Assembly: GCF_023516575.1 (NCBI RefSeq)
Contig: NZ_JAMGBE010000003.1
Span: 372,001 to 436,000, forward strand
Direction of reading: 5' to 3'
Length of the DNA stretch: 64,000 nt
Source of the DNA: Sphingomonas hankyongi
GTDB taxonomy: Bacteria; Pseudomonadota; Alphaproteobacteria; Sphingomonadales; Sphingomonadaceae
Shown: piece by piece, positions 34,450-43,622 of the stretch
Layout: every line of letters starts with the position of its first letter
Position numbering within the stretch: the first letter of the stretch is position 1
Notes under the pieces: model-generated
The model's input: only the letters and a program-made list of their open reading frames with translations
Databases searched by the model: none
What the model was told of the DNA's origin: nothing
Made by a program: the position numbers and the translations under genes

Positions 34450-35072
34450 TGCAGCAGGTCCCGGAGAGCTTCCATGAGACGTCGCGTGACCTCGCCGGGC
34501 GTACCGGAAGCGTCGACAATCCGAACCCGTTCCGGCTCCTCAGCGGCAATCAGCCGAAAGGCCAGGTCGACTTTCTGGTGATATTGCTCCGAGCGGCCGC
34601 CGATGCGATCGCTGTTCTCGTTGTCGCGCGCCCGCGCCCGGGCACCGCCCTCGGCCAAAGCGAGGACTAGGGTCCGATCCGGAAAGCCGTCATCGACGGC
34701 GAAGGCGTTGATCGCGCGGACCTGCTCGATGCCCAGCTCCCCGGCGCCCCCTTGATAGGCCAGCGAGCTGTCAAGAAAGCGGTCGCAGAGGACCCAGCGC
34801 CCTGCCTGTAGTGCCGGTTCGATGGTGCGCTCGTAGTGATCGGCCCGCGCGGCCGCGAACAGGAGCGCTTCTGCGCGGGCTGTCCAGCGGTCCTCGGCAC
34901 CGCTCAAAAGCAACTCGCGGATTTTCTCGGCGCCTTCGCTTCCGCCGGGCTCTCGCGTCACCAGAACATCGATGTCGCGGTCCTTAAGGGCTTGCGCCAA
35001 GGCGCGGACCTGGGTCGATTTTCCTGCCCCCTCCCCGCCTTCCAGGGTGATGAACCGTCCGCGTTGCGTCAC
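34446..35072 (-). CDS. tmk: Thymidylate kinase
   Basis: 208 residues. dTMP kinase with P-loop GGEGAGKST, the DR[FY] signature DRFLDSSLAYQGG, and an Arg-rich lid region. It makes dTDP for DNA synthesis. The GTG start overlaps the dacC-like stop (GTGA), and its own stop overlaps holB, so both neighbours are coupled. Confidence 0.96.
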   Translation of the reverse strand: MTQRGRFITLEGGEGAGKSTQVRALAQALKDRDIDVLVTREPGGSEGAEKIRELLLSGAEDRWTARAEALLFAAARADHYERTIEPALQAGRWVLCDRFLDSSLAYQGGAGELGIEQVRAINAFAVDDGFPDRTLVLALAEGGARARARDNENSDRIGGRSEQYHQKVDLAFRLIAAEEPERVRIVDASGTPGEVTRRLMEALRDLLQ

Positions 35073-36247
35073 GCCATCCCGATGAGCTGCTTGAGGCCAA
35101 GCCAGATGCGCCCGAACAGACCTGCACGCCCGACCTCCTCGCCAGCGACGAGCGGCACGATTTGCTCGCCCGTATCTCCGGTGAGGATCACCAGGTCAGC
35201 GACGTGCTGCCCCTTTGCGATTGGGGCAGCGATCGGCCCCTGATATCGAATTTTCATCTTGAGCGGAGCGGAGGACAGGCCGGCGGGGATCGTCACGGCC
35301 AGATCCCGTGGAGCGACCAAAGGCACTTCGCTCTCACTTCCAAGCTGCACCTGGGCCTTGCCGACACTCTGCCCCGACTTGAACAACGGCTTTGCCTGCC
35401 AGGCGTTGAAGCCCCACTCCATCAACCGCGTGGATTCCTGCACGCGCGCGTTCCAGCTCGGAAGGCCCGCCAGCACTTCGATCAGGCGGCGCCCGTTCTG
35501 TTCGGCGGAACCGGTGAAGCCATAGCCGGCCTCCTCGGTGTGTCCGGTCTTCAGGCCGTCAGCGCCCGGCACCTTGCCCAGGATCGGGTTGCGATTCTGC
35601 TGGGTGATGTCCTGGCCAGACCCAAGCGTCTTTCCCCATGTGAAGGACGTCTGCGAGTAGAACTTCTTGTACAGCTGCGGATGGCGTTCGACCGAGGCCC
35701 GCGCGAGCGTGGCAAGATCGCGCGCCGTCACGTAGGTGCATCCCTCGTCCGGCCATCCGTTGCTGTTGCAGAAGCGGCTGTTCTTCAGGCCGAGCTGCCG
35801 CGCAAAGTCGTTCATTTGGTTGGCGAAGGCCTGCTCCGTGCCCGCGATGCACTCGGCGAGGACGACGGAGGCGTCGTTGCCGGAGAGGGTCACGATGCCA
35901 TGGATCAGATTCTCGACGCTCACTTGCTCGCCAGGTGACAGGAACATGGTCGAGCCTGCCGCTGGGCCATGCCACTTCTGCCAGGTCTCGGGCCTCACCG
36001 TGCACATCTTGCTGAGCGGCAGCTGCCCCTTGTCGATCAGCTCAAAGGCAACTTCTGAGGTCATCATCTTGGCCATGGACGCCGGCGGCATCCTCATGTC
36101 CGGATCCTTGGAATAAAGGACTGCGCCCGACGACAAATCGATCAGGAAGGCGGTCCTGGCGGGCGTGTCGAACGGCGGCGCAGCAGCGGGCGCGGCACTG
36201 GCGAACAGGAGCGAAGCGGCGGTGGCAAGCAGGATTGAACGCGTCAT
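35069..36247 (-). CDS. D-alanyl-D-alanine carboxypeptidase (DacC/PBP5 type)
   Basis: 392 residues with an N-terminal signal peptide (ILLATAASLLFASAAPAAA). Penicillin-binding motifs are SMAK (catalytic serine), SGN (LSGNDASV) and KTG (GLKTGHTEEAG). The C-terminal beta domain and a terminal amphipathic helix (RAGLFGRIWLGLKQLIGMA) suit membrane attachment, as in PBP5/6. It removes the terminal D-Ala from peptidoglycan pentapeptides. It heads the operon with tmk and holB, an arrangement common in this order. Confidence 0.95.
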   Translation of the reverse strand: MTRSILLATAASLLFASAAPAAAPPFDTPARTAFLIDLSSGAVLYSKDPDMRMPPASMAKMMTSEVAFELIDKGQLPLSKMCTVRPETWQKWHGPAAGSTMFLSPGEQVSVENLIHGIVTLSGNDASVVLAECIAGTEQAFANQMNDFARQLGLKNSRFCNSNGWPDEGCTYVTARDLATLARASVERHPQLYKKFYSQTSFTWGKTLGSGQDITQQNRNPILGKVPGADGLKTGHTEEAGYGFTGSAEQNGRRLIEVLAGLPSWNARVQESTRLMEWGFNAWQAKPLFKSGQSVGKAQVQLGSESEVPLVAPRDLAVTIPAGLSSAPLKMKIRYQGPIAAPIAKGQHVADLVILTGDTGEQIVPLVAGEEVGRAGLFGRIWLGLKQLIGMA

Positions 36248-37637: not shown

Positions 37638-38141
37638 TCAAAGCGCTCGCTTCAGTCCGTGCAGTCCGACGACCCGCCCGTCGGACACTATGGGCACTGC
37701 AAGTATCCTGATCCAACGGCTCTCGTCGCCAGCAGGCTCCAGGGCAGGCTCAAGGGCAGCATCCAGGATGAAGCCAAATTTGCACCGCAGCGCGTAGCTG
37801 CGCACCCTTTCCAGCGCTGCTTTGGAAAGTTCGGTATACCGAGTCACCGCCCATTCCCGTTCGAGCGGCGTCCCTGGAGGCAGCTCGAATAAATCGTAGA
37901 CCTTTTTCGACCAGGTCAGCTTGTCATGATCCGCGATGTCGCACTGCCAGTATCCGGCCTCGGGATCCTCTCGCGAATGTCCGAGGTCTGGCACGGACGT
38001 GAAAACATGTCCTTCGACGAATGCCCTCGGCGGTTCGTCGTAGAATAGCTCGTAAACGAACGATCGGTTGGTCAAGCTTGCCCCCTGTCTGTCATCATCT
38101 AAAAAATCGGCGACCTTGGCAAAAGCCGTCCCGGCTTTCAT
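37638..38141 (-). CDS. PAS domain-only protein
   Basis: 167 residues. The C-terminal two thirds resemble a PAS fold of the PAS_3/PAS_4 type: YWQCDIADHDKLTWSKKVYDLFEL, then a helical middle with LSKAALERVRSYAL, and the closing strand RILAVPIVSDGRVVGLHGL. No kinase, GGDEF or DNA-binding domain follows, so it is an orphan sensor or a light/redox or ligand-binding module. The start lies only 16 bases from a BlaI-type operator pair, so it may share control with the divergent blaI-M56 genes. Function unknown. Confidence 0.75.
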   Translation of the reverse strand: MKAGTAFAKVADFLDDDRQGASLTNRSFVYELFYDEPPRAFVEGHVFTSVPDLGHSREDPEAGYWQCDIADHDKLTWSKKVYDLFELPPGTPLEREWAVTRYTELSKAALERVRSYALRCKFGFILDAALEPALEPAGDESRWIRILAVPIVSDGRVVGLHGLKRAL

Positions 38142-38156
38142 TCATCTTGCGTTCAC

Positions 38157-38188
38157 GCTACAAATGTAGCACATGCTACAAATGTAGC
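38157..38188. promoter_or_regulatory. Twin BlaI-type operators
   Basis: Two identical 14-base palindromes, GCTACAAATGTAGC, occupy 38157-38170 and 38175-38188, their centres 18 bases apart. The core CTACA-NN-TGTAG resembles the TACA/TGTA core of BlaI, MecI and CopY operators. They lie between a divergent PAS protein gene (start 38141) and the BlaI-type gene (start 38220), so a repressor here could control both directions. Confidence 0.75.
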
Positions 38189-38219
38189 GCACCGAGTCGG
38201 TACGCAGGAAAGGAATGGA

Positions 38220-38600
38220 ATGCTAAGCAAGCTGCCCCCTCGCGAACGTCAGATCGTGGACATCCTGTATGAGCGAGGTTCGCTCGCGGTGTCGGACATC
38301 TGTGAAGCGCTGCCCGACCAACTCAGTGGGTCGGCGGTGCGCGCGATGCTGAAACGGCTGGAGGACAAGGGGTTTGTCCAACGCAGCGATTCCGAACGCG
38401 GTTACCTGTACAGCCCGGTCGTGTCGGAAACCGCGGCCAAGAAATCCGCGCTCAGCGAAATCGTTCGCGTCTTCTTCAATGGATCGCCGGCAAGCGCCGC
38501 TTCGGCGCTTCTCGGCATGTCCGACAAGCTCGACACCGACGAACTGGACGAAATCGAGGCGATGATCGCCCGAGCGCGCAAGGCCAAAGGGGGCCAATGA
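38220..38600 (+). CDS. BlaI/MecI/CopY family transcriptional repressor
   Basis: 126 residues. Winged-helix N-terminus (PPRERQIVDILYERGSLAVSDICEAL, then the recognition helix SGSAVRAMLKRLEDKGFV and wing RSDSERGYLYSP), followed by a dimerisation helix region (SALSEIVRVFFNGSPASAASALL) that in BlaI is cut by the partner protease. AGGAAAGGA precedes the ATG. Its stop overlaps the M56 protease start (ATGATG), the classic repressor-sensor pair. Two matching operators lie 32 bases upstream, so it is very likely autoregulated. Confidence 0.93.
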   Translation: MLSKLPPRERQIVDILYERGSLAVSDICEALPDQLSGSAVRAMLKRLEDKGFVQRSDSERGYLYSPVVSETAAKKSALSEIVRVFFNGSPASAASALLGMSDKLDTDELDEIEAMIARARKAKGGQ

Positions 38601-40408
38601 TGCACATCCTGATCGCGATCGCGCTGAAGTCGCTGCTGGTGGCCGGAGCCACGCTCGGCCTCCTTGCATTGCTCAGGCATCGTTCGGCTTCCGAGCGTTC
38701 GTGGGTCGCTCACATCGGACTTCTCGCGCTTATCGTGATCGCTTTCGCCCCGCTCGTTCTCCCACGCTGGAATGTGGCAACCCCTGCCCTGCTCAGCGCT
38801 CCAGCCAAATCAGAGATCACAGCTCCGTCCCCGGCGCCGTCCACCATCCGCAAGAGTCCCCTTCCGGATGCGACGACGCCGGCGGCGGTCCGCCTTGAGG
38901 TCTCCACACCGGCGATCAGCCCCGCCGCTGCGGCCGCCGCGATCTATGCCGTCCCCGCCGCCATATTGTTGCTCATCACATTCCTGGCTCTCGCGCGTTT
39001 GATCGCGTTGCGGGCAAGGGCCGAAGTGCTTGTCGACAGTCGTTGGCTGAGCGCCCTGGCGATGGCGCAGCGGCGAATGGGCTTCAAGCACGGCACTGCC
39101 CTGCTGACCAGCGACGAGTTGGGTTCCCCGATCAGCTGGGGCCTGATGCGGCCCGTGATCCTTCTGAACTCGCGCGCCGTCGAGGCGGCAGGCGAAGCCG
39201 AAGCGATCATTGCGCACGAACTGGCGCACGTGGCGCGGCTCGACTGGGCCAAGCTGATGCTCGCCCGCCTTGCAACGGCGCTGTTCTGGTTCAACCCGCT
39301 TGTCTGGCTTCTTGCTCGCGAGGCCCACCAGCTGCGCGAGGAATCAGCCGATGACGCCGTACTTGGCGCCAACATCGCCGATACGGATTACGCCCAGTTG
39401 CTCGTTGGTGTCGCCCGGCATGAATGCTCGGGACTGCTTCTTGGGGCACATGGCGTTGCGCCTTCGAAGAGCTCGCTTGCCCGGCGTGTCGCCCGCGTGC
39501 TCGATAGTGCCTCGCCGCGCGGTCCTGCTGCCGGCTCGTTCGCCCTGGGTGTATTCACTGGCGCGATCCTCATCGCGGCTCCGCTCGCGGCGCTTACCCT
39601 GACGCCGGCCAACGAGAGCAAGCTGAATGCTCCGAAAGTGGCGGCCGCTGCCGATCCGGCCAAGCCTTATTACGCGGCCGAGCCGGCGCCGGCGGACCTG
39701 CCGAACATCATTGCGGACGGGGTGACCACGGCAGTCGCTGCCATCGCAGCGGACCCAGTGAAGCCAGCAGCAGATGCGAGAGAAGCTGCGCTCGACCACG
39801 CCGCCGAGGCCCGCCAGGATGCGCTGGATCAGGCGGCGGAAGCACGCGACGCAGCCATCGAGCAGGCGCTTGCGACGGCAGAGCGTGCGCGCGTCAAAGC
39901 GGTGAAGATCGCTGCCGCCCATGGCGACCATGACCTGGATGCACTTATTCAGATGCGCGCTGTCGGCATCTCACCCGAATATGTGGCCGCGATGCGAGCT
40001 GCGGTTCCAGCGCTCGCGCGCCTTGCTCCCGAGGACTTTGTCGGACTGAAGTCGGTCGGAGTGACGCCAGACTTCGCTCGCGACATCGTCGCCGCCGGCT
40101 TCCGCGGCATCGACGAAGACGGACTGACGGAAGCGCGCGCAATCGGTCTCACCGGCGGCTACATACGCGCACTCACGGCGGCCGGCGTGCGCGGCAATCT
40201 GGATGATTTCGTGCAGCTGCGGGCTGTTGGGATCAGGCCCGAGTTCGTCCAGCGTCTCCGCAGCGCGGGCTATACGACGAGTGACCCCGACAAGCTTGTC
40301 GAGCTGCAGGCGGTGGGCGGCGAGCTCCTCGGCCCTCGGCCACCGCCCAAGCCCCCGAAGCCGCCGAGGCTGCCAAATGTTAACCCGGCCGACGACCCCG
40401 GCGACTGA
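38597..40408 (+). CDS. M56 family membrane metallopeptidase (BlaR1-like) with C-terminal repeats
   Basis: 603 residues. Membrane helices at about 4-26, 36-55 and 113-135 surround a cytoplasmic loop, and the zinc motif HELAH (H207, H211) follows, as in BlaR1/MecR1. A further helix lies near 310-332. The extracytoplasmic tail has no penicillin-binding domain. Instead it has an Ala-rich helical stretch (about 385-440, with repeated HAAEARQ/QAAEARD units), then about four and a half repeats of 28-31 residues (about 445-575) with the core AVGISPEYV, and ends in a Pro-rich segment. It probably senses a ligand and cuts the BlaI-type repressor. The signal is unlikely to be a beta-lactam in this form. 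Confidence 0.9.
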   Translation: MMHILIAIALKSLLVAGATLGLLALLRHRSASERSWVAHIGLLALIVIAFAPLVLPRWNVATPALLSAPAKSEITAPSPAPSTIRKSPLPDATTPAAVRLEVSTPAISPAAAAAAIYAVPAAILLLITFLALARLIALRARAEVLVDSRWLSALAMAQRRMGFKHGTALLTSDELGSPISWGLMRPVILLNSRAVEAAGEAEAIIAHELAHVARLDWAKLMLARLATALFWFNPLVWLLAREAHQLREESADDAVLGANIADTDYAQLLVGVARHECSGLLLGAHGVAPSKSSLARRVARVLDSASPRGPAAGSFALGVFTGAILIAAPLAALTLTPANESKLNAPKVAAAADPAKPYYAAEPAPADLPNIIADGVTTAVAAIAADPVKPAADAREAALDHAAEARQDALDQAAEARDAAIEQALATAERARVKAVKIAAAHGDHDLDALIQMRAVGISPEYVAAMRAAVPALARLAPEDFVGLKSVGVTPDFARDIVAAGFRGIDEDGLTEARAIGLTGGYIRALTAAGVRGNLDDFVQLRAVGIRPEFVQRLRSAGYTTSDPDKLVELQAVGGELLGPRPPPKPPKPPRLPNVNPADDPGD

Positions 40409-40461
40409 CGACTAACCGACCAAACGACTGAGTTTCGATTTGAAGCGCCTCAACCGGCAAA

Positions 40462-40478
40462 CGGGCAAGCTTTGCCCG
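40462..40478. repeat. Stem-loop in the M56/repeat-protein gap
   Basis: CGGGCAA and TTGCCCG pair perfectly around GCT. It lies 54 bases after the M56 stop and 22 bases before the next ATG. No T tract follows, so it is more likely an mRNA processing or stability element than a full terminator, and the exported repeat protein may still be on the same transcript. Confidence 0.4.
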
Positions 40479-40500
40479 GAGAAATCAAAGGAGAGCGACT

Positions 40501-41367
40501 ATGACACGCTGTCTCGCATTCATCTTTGCATTGATGCTGGCCACGCTATCCGTTGCCTCGGCCTGCAGTGCATCCGGCCCGAACTGGGTGCGGTTCACCC
40601 TGCAGCAGGAGCGCGATAGCAATCAGATCCGTGCCTCGTTCGAGCAGGATCGCGGTCATGGGGCGGGCAACTGGTCCACAGGCTTCATGCCGCACCAGAT
40701 TACCGGCCTCGATACCGCCGGGTTTCGGGCCACTGGTACCCGCCCGCTCCGTTTCGCCGTAATCCGCGAACCGGGCCGGCTCGATTGTTCTGGCCAAGGC
40801 GGCAATTCCCAGGCGACAGGCGATTGCCGTTTCACCGCGGATAATGCCTTCGCCCAATTGCTGGACAGCCGCGGTATCGGCCAGCCGACCAACGACGAAG
40901 CCTTCAGCCTAATGGTTGTGAATGCCCGCCGCGAACTTATCGACGCAATTGCGCAGGCCAAATATCCGACACCGCGGATCGACGACCTCGTCTCCCTTGC
41001 GGCGCTCGACGTTACAGCGGACTATATCAGGGGCTTGGCGACCGCTGGCTATCGCCCCGAGAATATCGACACGCTGGTGGAGTTCAAGGCGCTCGGCATC
41101 ACTCCGGCCTACATCGCGGGCTTCACTAAGATCGGCTACCGCAACATCGATCCGGACGACCTCGTCCAGCTCAAGGCGCTCAACGTCACCCCGGAATATA
41201 TCACCGGTTTCCAGAAGCTTGGATATACGAACCTATCGGCCGACCGGCTCGTCGAACTGAAGGCTGTGGGAATCACGCCAGAGTTCGTCGCCGCCGTCCG
41301 CGAGCCCGGATCTACTCCGTCGGTTTCCGACCTCGTCGATCGCAAGTTCGGCGCCCGCCGCCGTTAG
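40501..41367 (+). CDS. Exported protein with 29-residue GVTPEY repeats
   Basis: 288 residues starting after AAAGGAGAG. A signal peptide ends near residue 21 (ATLSVASAC), with Cys 22 possibly a lipoprotein cysteine although the lipobox is not ideal. Residues 28-155 form a beta-rich domain with two cysteines (C96, C109) that could form a disulfide. Residues 160-271 contain four repeats with an exact 29-residue period (leucines at 163, 192, 221, 250), core LVELKAVGITPEFV, followed by GY. The same repeat occurs in the M56 protease tail just upstream. I know of no function; the shared repeat suggests a direct partner or a ligand-like inhibitor of the protease. Confidence 0.8.
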   Translation: MTRCLAFIFALMLATLSVASACSASGPNWVRFTLQQERDSNQIRASFEQDRGHGAGNWSTGFMPHQITGLDTAGFRATGTRPLRFAVIREPGRLDCSGQGGNSQATGDCRFTADNAFAQLLDSRGIGQPTNDEAFSLMVVNARRELIDAIAQAKYPTPRIDDLVSLAALDVTADYIRGLATAGYRPENIDTLVEFKALGITPAYIAGFTKIGYRNIDPDDLVQLKALNVTPEYITGFQKLGYTNLSADRLVELKAVGITPEFVAAVREPGSTPSVSDLVDRKFGARRR

Positions 41368-41489: not shown

Positions 41490-43622
41490 ATGCGTACAGG
41501 CCTGTTCACTACCGTTGCGACGGCTGCTTTGATTAGCGCGTCCCCGGCGTTCGCTCAGTCGAACACCGGTGGCGACACGCCGGTGCCCGCGCAGCCGCAA
41601 AACGGGCGGACGACGTCCTATGACGCCGCTTTCTTCGCGCAATATGCACCTCGAACGGCGCTCGACATCGCGCGGCGGGTGCCCGGCTTCAACCTGGATC
41701 TTGGAAACAACGATATCCGCGGCTTCGCCGCCGCGGCCGGCAATGTCGTCATCAATGGAGCTAGGCCGAGTTCGAAGGCGGAGACGCTGGAAACAACGCT
41801 GCAGAGAATTCCGGCTCAGCGCGTCTCCCGCGTCGAGATCGGTCCGGGCGACTTGTTCGGCGCTGACTATTCGAGCCGAAGCCAAGTCCTTAATATCATC
41901 ATGTCTGCAGCGGGCGGCATTGACGGCAACATAACCGGCTCCATGCGCCGCCTGTACACGGGCAAGGTCGTCCCCGATGGCTCCGCCTCCGCTCTCATCC
42001 GGCGCGGCGCATCCACGTTCAATATTTCCGGCGGCTTCAACAACACCCTCAATCACGAAGAAGGCACCGATACCCTGGTCGACATGTCGAGCGGGGACTC
42101 GCTGGAATTCCGGCGCAAGTTCAACAGCTACCACGACTTCAACCCCTATCTGTCGGGAAGCTGGGCGCTCGAGCGCGCGAATGACGATGCGTTTCGCGCG
42201 AACGTCCGCTGGTCGCCGGGGCAGTTCGACCTTTTCCAGCGCAATCGGGTGACCCCGGCCGACGAGGCGCCGCACGACGACAACCTCATCCAGGACTATG
42301 ACAATCCGGTGTTCGAGCTTGGTGGCGACGTCACCCGCCCATTAGCCGGCGGAGCGATCAAGCTTGTCGGGCTCGCGACCCGCCGCAAGCGCGATTACCT
42401 CGACGACTATATTCAGCGCGACGGCCTGATCGAGGATGGCGCCGTCCAGAATGGCGGGTTCAAGCAGACCCAGAAAGCCCAGAGAAATGAGTCGATCGGC
42501 CGACTGAACTGGACTCGGCAGGACCTGGCCGGCTTCTCTGTCGAGGTGGGCGCTGAGACCGCGCTCAACACGCTCGACAATGATACCGAGTTCTTCACCA
42601 TCGAGCCGGATGGCAGCGAGACCAAGGAAAACCTGCCTATCGAGCATGCGAAGGTGAAGGAGACGCGTGGCGAGCTTTTCCTGAACGTGGGTAAGACGAT
42701 CAATCCGAGCCTGCGCGTTGATGCCGGCCTGCGCTACGAATTCTCCCATCTCACGGTGCGGGGCGATGCGTTTACCGACCGGCGGCTCAAATTCCTGAAG
42801 CCGAGCCTGACTGTGGACTGGAAGCCGGGATCCGACTGGCACACCCAATTCTCGGTGCGGCGCACGGTCGCTCAGCTCAACTTCTTCGATTTCGTCACTT
42901 CGGCGGAAATCTCCGCGGACCGGATCAACGCCGGCAATGAAAATCTGGAGCCGCAACGCGCATGGGAATTCCGCGCTACCGGTGACCATCCGCTCTTCGG
43001 CGAGGGCCTGGTCAAGCTCGACCTCGGTTTCGACCTGATCAGCAAGCTTCAGGACCGCATCCTGATCGAGGACCCCGAGACGCACCGCTTCTTCGATGCT
43101 CCGGGAAACATCGGGACCGGCAAGCATCTGTTCGCTCATCTCACCGTCGACGCTCCGCTTGGGCGCTTCTGGAAGGGGCTGCGCGTCAAGTTCGACGGCA
43201 CGGTGCGCAGGACGCGGGTCCAGGACCCGATCAGCGGGGAGATGCGCAACTTCAGCGATTACTATCCCGACTGGGAGTGGAGCGTGGACGTGCGGCGGGA
43301 TTCCGGCGCCTTCTCCTACGGTTTCGTGGTCAACGACCGCGACCGCTTCACGTTCTTCCGAACGGACGAGTTTGACATCAACTACAATGGCGGGCCCTAC
43401 GCCACCGCCTTTGTCGAATATCGCCCCGGCCCGCGAACCTCGATCACGTTTGACATCGACAATGCCATCGACACCCAAGCGTTCCGGCGTCGGTTACGGT
43501 TTATCCCGAACCGCGCCGAACCCGTATTCGGAATCGACGAGTTCCGCGAACGTAACCGCCACCTCAATCTCGGCCTGACGATCAAACAGACGTTTGGCGG
43601 CGGCGGGGCAGCGACGAACTAG
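41490..43622 (+). CDS. TonB-dependent outer membrane receptor
   Basis: 710 residues. Signal peptide (about 1-22, ending ASPAFA), plug domain (about 45-150, with ALDIARRVPGFNL, NVVINGARPSSKAETLE and VEIGPGDLFGADY), then a beta-barrel of about 560 residues with alternating aromatic strands. No typical TonB box is evident in the Gln/Pro-rich N-terminus, and the chain ends in an unusual Gly/Ala tail (GGGGAATN) rather than an aromatic residue. Substrate unknown. It lies downstream of the repressor-protease-repeat genes on the same strand and could be a target of that system, but a promoter of its own is likely. Confidence 0.88.
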   Translation: MRTGLFTTVATAALISASPAFAQSNTGGDTPVPAQPQNGRTTSYDAAFFAQYAPRTALDIARRVPGFNLDLGNNDIRGFAAAAGNVVINGARPSSKAETLETTLQRIPAQRVSRVEIGPGDLFGADYSSRSQVLNIIMSAAGGIDGNITGSMRRLYTGKVVPDGSASALIRRGASTFNISGGFNNTLNHEEGTDTLVDMSSGDSLEFRRKFNSYHDFNPYLSGSWALERANDDAFRANVRWSPGQFDLFQRNRVTPADEAPHDDNLIQDYDNPVFELGGDVTRPLAGGAIKLVGLATRRKRDYLDDYIQRDGLIEDGAVQNGGFKQTQKAQRNESIGRLNWTRQDLAGFSVEVGAETALNTLDNDTEFFTIEPDGSETKENLPIEHAKVKETRGELFLNVGKTINPSLRVDAGLRYEFSHLTVRGDAFTDRRLKFLKPSLTVDWKPGSDWHTQFSVRRTVAQLNFFDFVTSAEISADRINAGNENLEPQRAWEFRATGDHPLFGEGLVKLDLGFDLISKLQDRILIEDPETHRFFDAPGNIGTGKHLFAHLTVDAPLGRFWKGLRVKFDGTVRRTRVQDPISGEMRNFSDYYPDWEWSVDVRRDSGAFSYGFVVNDRDRFTFFRTDEFDINYNGGPYATAFVEYRPGPRTSITFDIDNAIDTQAFRRRLRFIPNRAEPVFGIDEFRERNRHLNLGLTIKQTFGGGGAATN

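Follow-up and report, generated by a model that had tools for sequence, protein, structure and literature searches.

Within a 64,000-nucleotide stretch of Sphingomonas hankyongi DNA (contig NZ_JAMGBE010000003.1, positions 372,001 to 436,000; here the window, numbered from its first letter) we describe a four-gene operon encoding a BlaI/MecI-type repressor, a BlaR1-like membrane metalloprotease of family M56, an exported protein that we call EXP, and a TonB-receptor-like outer-membrane protein, OMP. BlaI-type operators thus head a single operon in which a protease switch is encoded together with an outer-membrane receptor and an exported protein whose solenoid matches that of the protease. The operon is real and conserved, it is undescribed in the openly licensed PubMed Central (PMC) literature that was searched in full text, and it belongs with the BlaI/BlaR1 systems, as a variant of them, and does not form a category of its own. 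An initial annotation, made from the DNA letters, had read the locus as a sensing module for something other than a beta-lactam, and that reading is partly supported. On balance we favor, with modest confidence, a BlaR1-type proteolytic switch rewired from beta-lactams to a signal from the envelope or an outer-membrane receptor, with EXP as its periplasmic partner. The features of the locus are as follows.

38158..38169, no strand: BlaI-type operator 1, sequence CTACAAATGTAG
38176..38187, no strand: BlaI-type operator 2, sequence CTACAAATGTAG, as operator 1
38220..38600, plus strand: BlaI/MecI-type repressor, 126 amino acids (aa) (PF03965; alignment to PDB 1sd4)
38597..40408, plus strand: M56 BlaR1-like membrane metalloprotease, 603 aa (PF05569; hydropathy; invariant residues)
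39950..40294, plus strand: M56-tail repeat region, residues 452-566, predicted periplasmic (four repeat-profile matches; side taken from topology)
40501..41367, plus strand: EXP, exported, 288 aa, predicted beta domain and alpha-alpha solenoid of 29-residue repeats (AlphaFold; repeats)
41490..43622, plus strand: OMP, TonB-receptor-like outer-membrane protein, 710 aa, fourth gene (PF07715, PF14905, adjacency)
37638..38141, minus strand: PAS/GAF-like gene, divergent, with the operator region in common; an unproven, possible member (position)

The BlaI gene runs to 38600 and overlaps the start of the M56 gene at 38597, and this overlap and the twin operators upstream are as the initial annotation had described them (PF03965, PF05569). 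The conserved run, which that annotation ended at 41367, extends to the OMP gene at 41490-43622, missed earlier.

Conservation and distribution of the operon

Conservation was assessed in two samples. The first consists of 80 named loci, the best of 95 found with the M56 alignment as the sole bait; the bait patterns were exact peptides, so that these loci lean to close relatives, and they overlap in part with the second sample, 298 genomes of the family, in which EXP was matched at E<=1e-4 and the M56 subfamily at E<=1e-60. EXP adjoins M56 in 70 of the 80 loci, and the contiguous order BlaI-M56-EXP-OMP is present in 56, of which 54 have repeats on both proteins and two have no detected M56 repeat. 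Three loci lack BlaI only, at a contig end; ten have BlaI-M56-EXP without OMP by the distance rule, two of them at contig ends (L080 has OMP frames nonetheless); and six are of other or truncated arrangement. Nearly all of the loci are titled as sphingomonads, and L138 is from Parvularcula dongshanensis.

Among the 298 family genomes, EXP was matched in 21, four of which are matches to M56 tails only; EXP is therefore counted in 17, in 16 by profile and in G149 by eye, where the profile match covers the repeat only. The M56 subfamily is present in 19. Both occur in 12 genomes where about one is expected, with M56 alone in seven and EXP alone in five (Fisher p 3.4e-13, in a test that ignores kinship), and 11 of these 12 genomes, all but G297, have BlaI, M56, and EXP side by side. 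The co-occurrence of a repeat-tailed M56 protein, EXP, and BlaI in other genomes, a check set beforehand in the initial annotation, is therefore borne out in both samples. The full run BlaI-M56-EXP-OMP was seen in eight of 20 other family genomes, some of which also figure among the 80 loci. The operon is nonetheless patchy, with a presence in about 6% of the sampled family genomes, and neither EXP nor the M56 subfamily was found in the five other genomes sampled from its own genus. With at most six candidates scored per genome, the EXP profile matched one of 385 genomes of the class (its own genome) and three of 398 of the phylum, all in the same family; the repeat region alone likewise matched three of 398 phylum genomes, again of this family. 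EXP has no match in the plasmid collection.

A BlaR1-like protease with a different outer domain

The M56 protein matches PF05569 over residues 5-299 (E 6.2e-31), with the motif HELAH at residues 207-211 and E248xxxD252 downstream. In an alignment of 43 M56 sequences (the window and 42 of 52 deduplicated loci), every sequence has H207, E208, H211, D216, E248, D252, and Y265. E248 sits 37 residues past H211, which equals the BlaR1 distance given in passages of PMC3356374, and residues matching the invariant ones are shown there to matter in Bacillus licheniformis BlaR1. The protein also aligns with the HEXXH region of Staphylococcus aureus BlaR1, and in a test of the M56 peptidase domain the A4 profile aligned to the BlaR1 cryo-electron microscopy chains (E 0.019). 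Hydropathy identifies four hydrophobic segments (residues 4-22, 37-55, 114-132, and 315-333) in a layout as in BlaR1, and because of this layout the C-terminal repeats are placed outside, in the periplasm, by prediction.

The remainder of the protein departs from BlaR1. Penicillin-binding and transpeptidase families are unmatched in Pfam at E<=1, as the initial annotation had proposed, and the NCBIfam BlaR1 model covers residues 12-303 only, scoring 61.8 of 400 bits. We reject membership of the beta-lactam receptors because a penicillin-binding domain is undetected. The Ala-rich stretch that had been noted ahead of the repeats is present by eye, at about residues 390-450. IcmE/DotG repeats were considered as relatives of the M56 profile and set aside, the weak sequence match (E 0.038) being read as compositional.

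EXP and the repeat it has in common with the protease

EXP is unmatched in Pfam and NCBIfam at E<=1. Its N terminus is hydrophobic over residues 4-22, and in a search of its own genome it matches the M56 tail with an E value of 1.5e-17; the Smith-Waterman score of the two is 193, against a mean of 28.8 (standard deviation 5.1) and a maximum of 54 in 1000 shuffles. A repeat profile of 423 sequences has four significant matches in each of EXP and the M56 tail. By sequence comparison, then, the 29-residue repeat common to the exported protein and the protease tail, which the initial annotation had also reported, is far beyond chance. In the searches made, the repeat was seen solely in M56 tails and EXP-type proteins.

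The AlphaFold model of EXP, built with 51 sequences (the window and 50 of 58 deduplicated loci), has a mean predicted local distance difference test score of 91.8 and a predicted template modeling score of 0.81. Strands extend from residue 29 to 113 and are followed by paired helices of 29-residue period to residue 287. All 51 sequences have both Cys96 and Cys109, which probably form a disulphide. Comparison of the model with the PDB by VIA-align did not give a clear structural match.

We also note a distant BlaI-M56 subfamily (L049, L050, and L052) with repeat tails and no adjacent EXP; the repeat tail is thus wider than the operon.

The repressor and its operators

The repressor matches PF03965 (Penicillinase_R) at E 2.5e-23, with 83.1 bits against a cut-off of 22.6. 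The twin operators in the window are 18 bp apart from start to start, and TACA..TGTA has no further occurrence within the 64 kb. The TACA/TGTA core is the known site of BlaI, MecI, and CopY as described in parts of PMC7253601. At least two such sites lie within 150 bp 5' of BlaI in 71 of the 76 BlaI-bearing loci (two in 70, three in one, one in four, and none in one), and the operator spacing is 16, 17, 18, or 19 bp in 46, 9, 11, and 5 loci, respectively.

According to sections of PMC9834060, BlaR1 itself cuts BlaI, at the bond joining Asn101 to Phe102. Opposite the S. aureus BlaI cleavage site, where the alignment to 1sd4 is gapped, the repressor here has the motif ALLGM (residues 96-100), of which A96, L97, G99, and M100 are kept in 77 of 77 sequences. 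This motif is a candidate site at which M56 may cleave BlaI.

Coupling of EXP and OMP

OMP matches PF14905 (OMP_b-brl_3) at E 1.2e-17 and PF07715 (Plug) at E 3.1e-05 (24.9 bits; cut-off 23.9), and a profile of 28 relatives matches Cir (1.7e-09) and BtuB (9e-05), in the plug only. No TonB box is obvious in OMP, as judged by eye alone. Gene spacing divides the operon into two pairs. BlaI and M56 are spaced by -4 to +3 bp, and M56 and EXP by gaps of 18 to 144 bp, with one exception of -50. In 39 of 60 loci the OMP start codon overlaps the end of EXP (-4 or -1), and in the others the two genes are separated by 10 to 129 bp, with one undetermined; these values use in each case the start codon closest to the preceding stop, which favors overlaps and small distances, and the same rule gives one overlap for M56-EXP. 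EXP and OMP of the window are 122 bp apart, and the promoter and terminator scan found no terminator-like sites in the M56-EXP and EXP-OMP gaps. OMP belongs to the unit. Judged by this spacing, EXP appears to be made with OMP and M56 with BlaI, and EXP looks to be coupled more tightly to OMP than to M56. It follows that EXP may be first of all OMP's partner.

Operator sites elsewhere in operon-bearing genomes

In 10 operon genomes, TACAAATGTA occurs at 29 sites against 5 for the control; 12 are outside the operon, including three without a sensible gene (C85 of G282, and C30 and C33 of G080). The exact 12-mer CTACAAATGTAG occurs at 107 sites in 40 operon-bearing genomes against four for the reversed pattern. 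Of these, 35 sites, at 34 places, are outside the operon and the rest are at it (presumed for S. segetis). The extra places, classified by comparing one or few members of each class with Pfam and the others by phmmer or BLAST, comprise 13 BlaI paralogues, 10 S41 genes, three DUF2807 genes, two OMP paralogues, two PF00144 genes, one S9 gene, one PspC gene, one shorter BlaI-like open reading frame (ORF) assigned by eye (L200), and one unassigned (L218).

The 10 S41 places belong without exception to Sphingopyxis or its kin, and one more S41 site is present in L159, a Sphingomonas metagenome-assembled genome (MAG). BlaI-type sites precede DUF2807 in the S. hankyongi genome itself, S. rhizophila, S. 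segetis, and Tsuneonella rigui. In S. hankyongi a perfect site separates divergent DUF2807 and glutathione S-transferase genes (region L060:4185-5609; C1:376684-378108), and S. segetis L192 has a matching divergent arrangement with a site (the transferase-like gene being assigned by eye). In S. segetis and Sphingomonas sp. URHD0057, sites precede OMP paralogues with 26% identity to the OMP of the window, and those in URHD0057 are twin. A further S. hankyongi site (C4:258469) is syntenic with one in URHD0057 (regions L061:4104-5509 and L194:1492-2900); in both genomes a short-chain dehydrogenase gene lies on one side of the site and, about 170-200 bp away, a small hydrophobic ORF followed by PspC on the other. 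PspC and DUF2807 are frequently linked to envelope stress, and the sites before them fit such a response. The proposal in the initial annotation that the inducer is an envelope state gains from these operator-bearing envelope genes, and the signal that the system senses probably lies at the envelope.

The S. hankyongi genome contains a second BlaI-M56 pair (L058:3613-5215, on C1) in which repeats were undetected and which has its own CTACAGTTGTAG site just 5' of BlaI; Sphingopyxis pairs related to it carry CTACAAATGTAG.

Genomic neighborhood

The BlaI locus is bordered 5' by a tRNA-Ser gene, beyond which a lytic transglycosylase gene (MltB) and then a PBP5-type D-Ala-D-Ala carboxypeptidase gene (35069-36247; PF00768, a penicillin-binding family) lie on the opposite strand; HlyD- and ABC-type genes follow OMP on its 3' side, also on the opposite strand. 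The initial annotation reported no beta-lactamase nearby; this holds for the 12 neighboring window genes scanned, but the penicillin-binding carboxypeptidase is only 2 kb upstream.

The start codon of the PAS/GAF-like gene is 16 bp from operator 1, and its domain matches are all under the curated cut-offs of Pfam and NCBIfam. PAS-like homologues are near the operon in 22 of the 80 loci, nearly all in Sphingopyxis, and in 21 of the 22 they are downstream of OMP. We do not accept this gene as a core member, given that most of these loci have it 3' of OMP and that its link to the operators in the window is positional only; perhaps PAS-like genes have become associated with the operon twice independently.

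Relation to known systems

The closest known systems are BlaR1-BlaI and MecR1-MecI of staphylococci and B. licheniformis, which, in the portions of PMC7253601, PMC9834060, and PMC3356374 that describe them, likewise have a BlaI-family repressor, an overlapping M56 gene, paired TACA/TGTA operators, HEXXH...EXXXD residues, four hydrophobic segments, and an outward C-terminal domain. The operon differs in that its M56 protein has a solenoid repeat tail and no detected penicillin-binding sensor, its outputs are EXP and a TonB-receptor-like OMP rather than beta-lactamase or PBP2a, and its BlaI has the invariant ALLGM where S. aureus BlaI has an Asn-Phe cleavage site. The copper repressors CopY and CopR belong to the same repressor superfamily and have the core operator TACANNTGTA in common, as reported in parts of PMC7253601. 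CopY, however, responds directly to metal without a protease, and the operon BlaI scores far under the NCBIfam CopY cut-off (32.8 against 121.95 bits). Systems of the FecA-FecR-FecI type are similar in placing an outer-membrane receptor gene beside a membrane-bound signal protein that controls receptor expression, but they use a sigma and anti-sigma factor where the operon uses a repressor and protease. CpxP and RseB, which are periplasmic feedback partners, offer an analogy for EXP as an exported protein under the control of a system that it may inhibit.

Proposed mechanism and alternatives

The analysis establishes the order of the genes, the operators, the catalytic residues, how many hydrophobic segments there are, the repeat in common, and the fold predicted for EXP; we infer cleavage of BlaI, the compartments of the parts, contact among EXP, M56, and OMP, the direction of control, and the inducer. 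At rest, BlaI on the twin operators would repress blaI-M56-EXP-OMP and a few envelope genes elsewhere. M56 would be an inner-membrane protein whose zinc site faces the cytoplasm and whose C-terminal solenoid, replacing the penicillin-binding sensor, projects into the periplasm. EXP, exported and co-produced with the outer-membrane receptor, would carry the same solenoid together with a disulphide-bearing beta domain and could form a periplasmic tie between OMP and the M56 tail. It might dock on the M56 solenoid and keep the protease off until OMP or a ligand from the envelope removes it, or alternatively it might bring the ligand signal to M56. Once its periplasmic solenoid is engaged or released, M56 would act on BlaI, with ALLGM as the candidate site, and the resulting induction of the operon would yield more EXP as feedback. 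A full trans-envelope relay, in which the state of the outer-membrane receptor passes through the EXP solenoid to the matching M56 solenoid and destroys the repressor of the whole set, is a tentative extension to which we give somewhat less than even credence.

Several observations weigh against this interpretation. Five of the 80 loci have BlaI-M56-OMP without EXP, and EXP lacks an adjacent M56 in five of the 17 EXP-bearing family genomes (at a contig end in G191). The five EXP-less loci imply that M56 can work without EXP, so that the role of sole ligand is less likely for EXP than that of a modulator or adaptor; both counts speak against EXP being needed to control the protease. The gene order also varies, with a GH16 gene and a larger TonB receptor replacing OMP after EXP in two related Sphingomonas MAGs (L078, 10856-16548, and L083, 10978-16588), and with an 883-aa BTAD/TPR-type regulator between EXP and two OMP genes in URHD0057 (L070, 10954-13605). 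The start-codon rule above flatters the EXP-OMP coupling, the 77 BlaI sequences lack the Asn-Phe pair at which S. aureus BlaI is cut, and the promoter scan found no sigma-70 site 5' of BlaI and overall one site against 0.9 by chance. In S. hankyongi alone CTACANNTGTAG is not enriched (five sites against four for the control). Finally, since BlaI paralogues share the operator, the outlying sites are not certainly those of this BlaI, and they may belong to the paralogues with near-identical operators that account for 13 of the 34 extra places.

The M56 and EXP solenoids might instead bind the same periplasmic ligand independently (an oligosaccharide, a peptidoglycan fragment, or a segment of OMP), with EXP as a soluble binding protein for import through OMP, like SusD-type partners, and contact with M56 unneeded. 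The coupling of EXP to OMP rather than to M56 favors this view, as do the EXP-less loci, which keep a repeat-bearing M56 and OMP. In L078 and L083, moreover, a tryptophan-halogenase-family gene (tested in L083) is also found after EXP with the GH16 and TonB receptor genes, an arrangement that resembles polysaccharide uptake and would fit the import of glycans. GH16 is nevertheless confined to these two of the 80 loci, and EXP has no match to a known binding-protein family; we regard independent binding as rather unlikely, though it is the alternative that we take most seriously. It is more doubtful still that EXP is a mere output of the regulon, its repeat having arisen when part of the tail was duplicated to give an exported effector that plays no role in signaling: the confinement of the repeat to M56 tails and EXP-type proteins and the existence of EXP-type genes away from M56 are compatible with such an origin, but the two genes adjoin in most loci, with both sides keeping their repeats.

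Least probable, and in our estimate very improbable, is that the system still senses cell-wall antibiotics or peptidoglycan damage through M56 or BlaI, with an output that includes beta-lactamase-family enzymes in some species. S. kyeonggiensis and S. leidyi do have BlaI-type sites at the start of serine hydrolase genes of the beta-lactamase family PF00144 (L196:2039-3571 and L198:1982-3508), and PBP5-type carboxypeptidase and lytic transglycosylase genes lie 5' of the operon in the window and in eight of the 80 loci each. PF00144, however, holds many enzymes other than beta-lactamases, the PBP5 and MltB genes are on the opposite strand past the tRNA-Ser gene, and the M56 protein has no detected penicillin-binding domain. 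A role for a peptidoglycan fragment in BlaI control has been described for B. licheniformis, in part of PMC3305447, and is in keeping with a wall-damage signal.

Implications

BlaI-M56 pairs usually receive a beta-lactam resistance annotation, which the sphingomonad version would correct. If the rewired switch that we favor is true, the BlaI-M56 proteolytic switch serves signals other than beta-lactams. Should the relay also prove true, BlaR1-type proteases would be a general chassis with an exchangeable outer domain, which here would be a protein-protein sensor of outer-membrane status governing an envelope regulon of DUF2807, PspC, S41, and OMP-paralogue genes. The operon offers a compact four-gene system, in harmless soil bacteria, for asking how the state of the outer membrane reaches a repressor.

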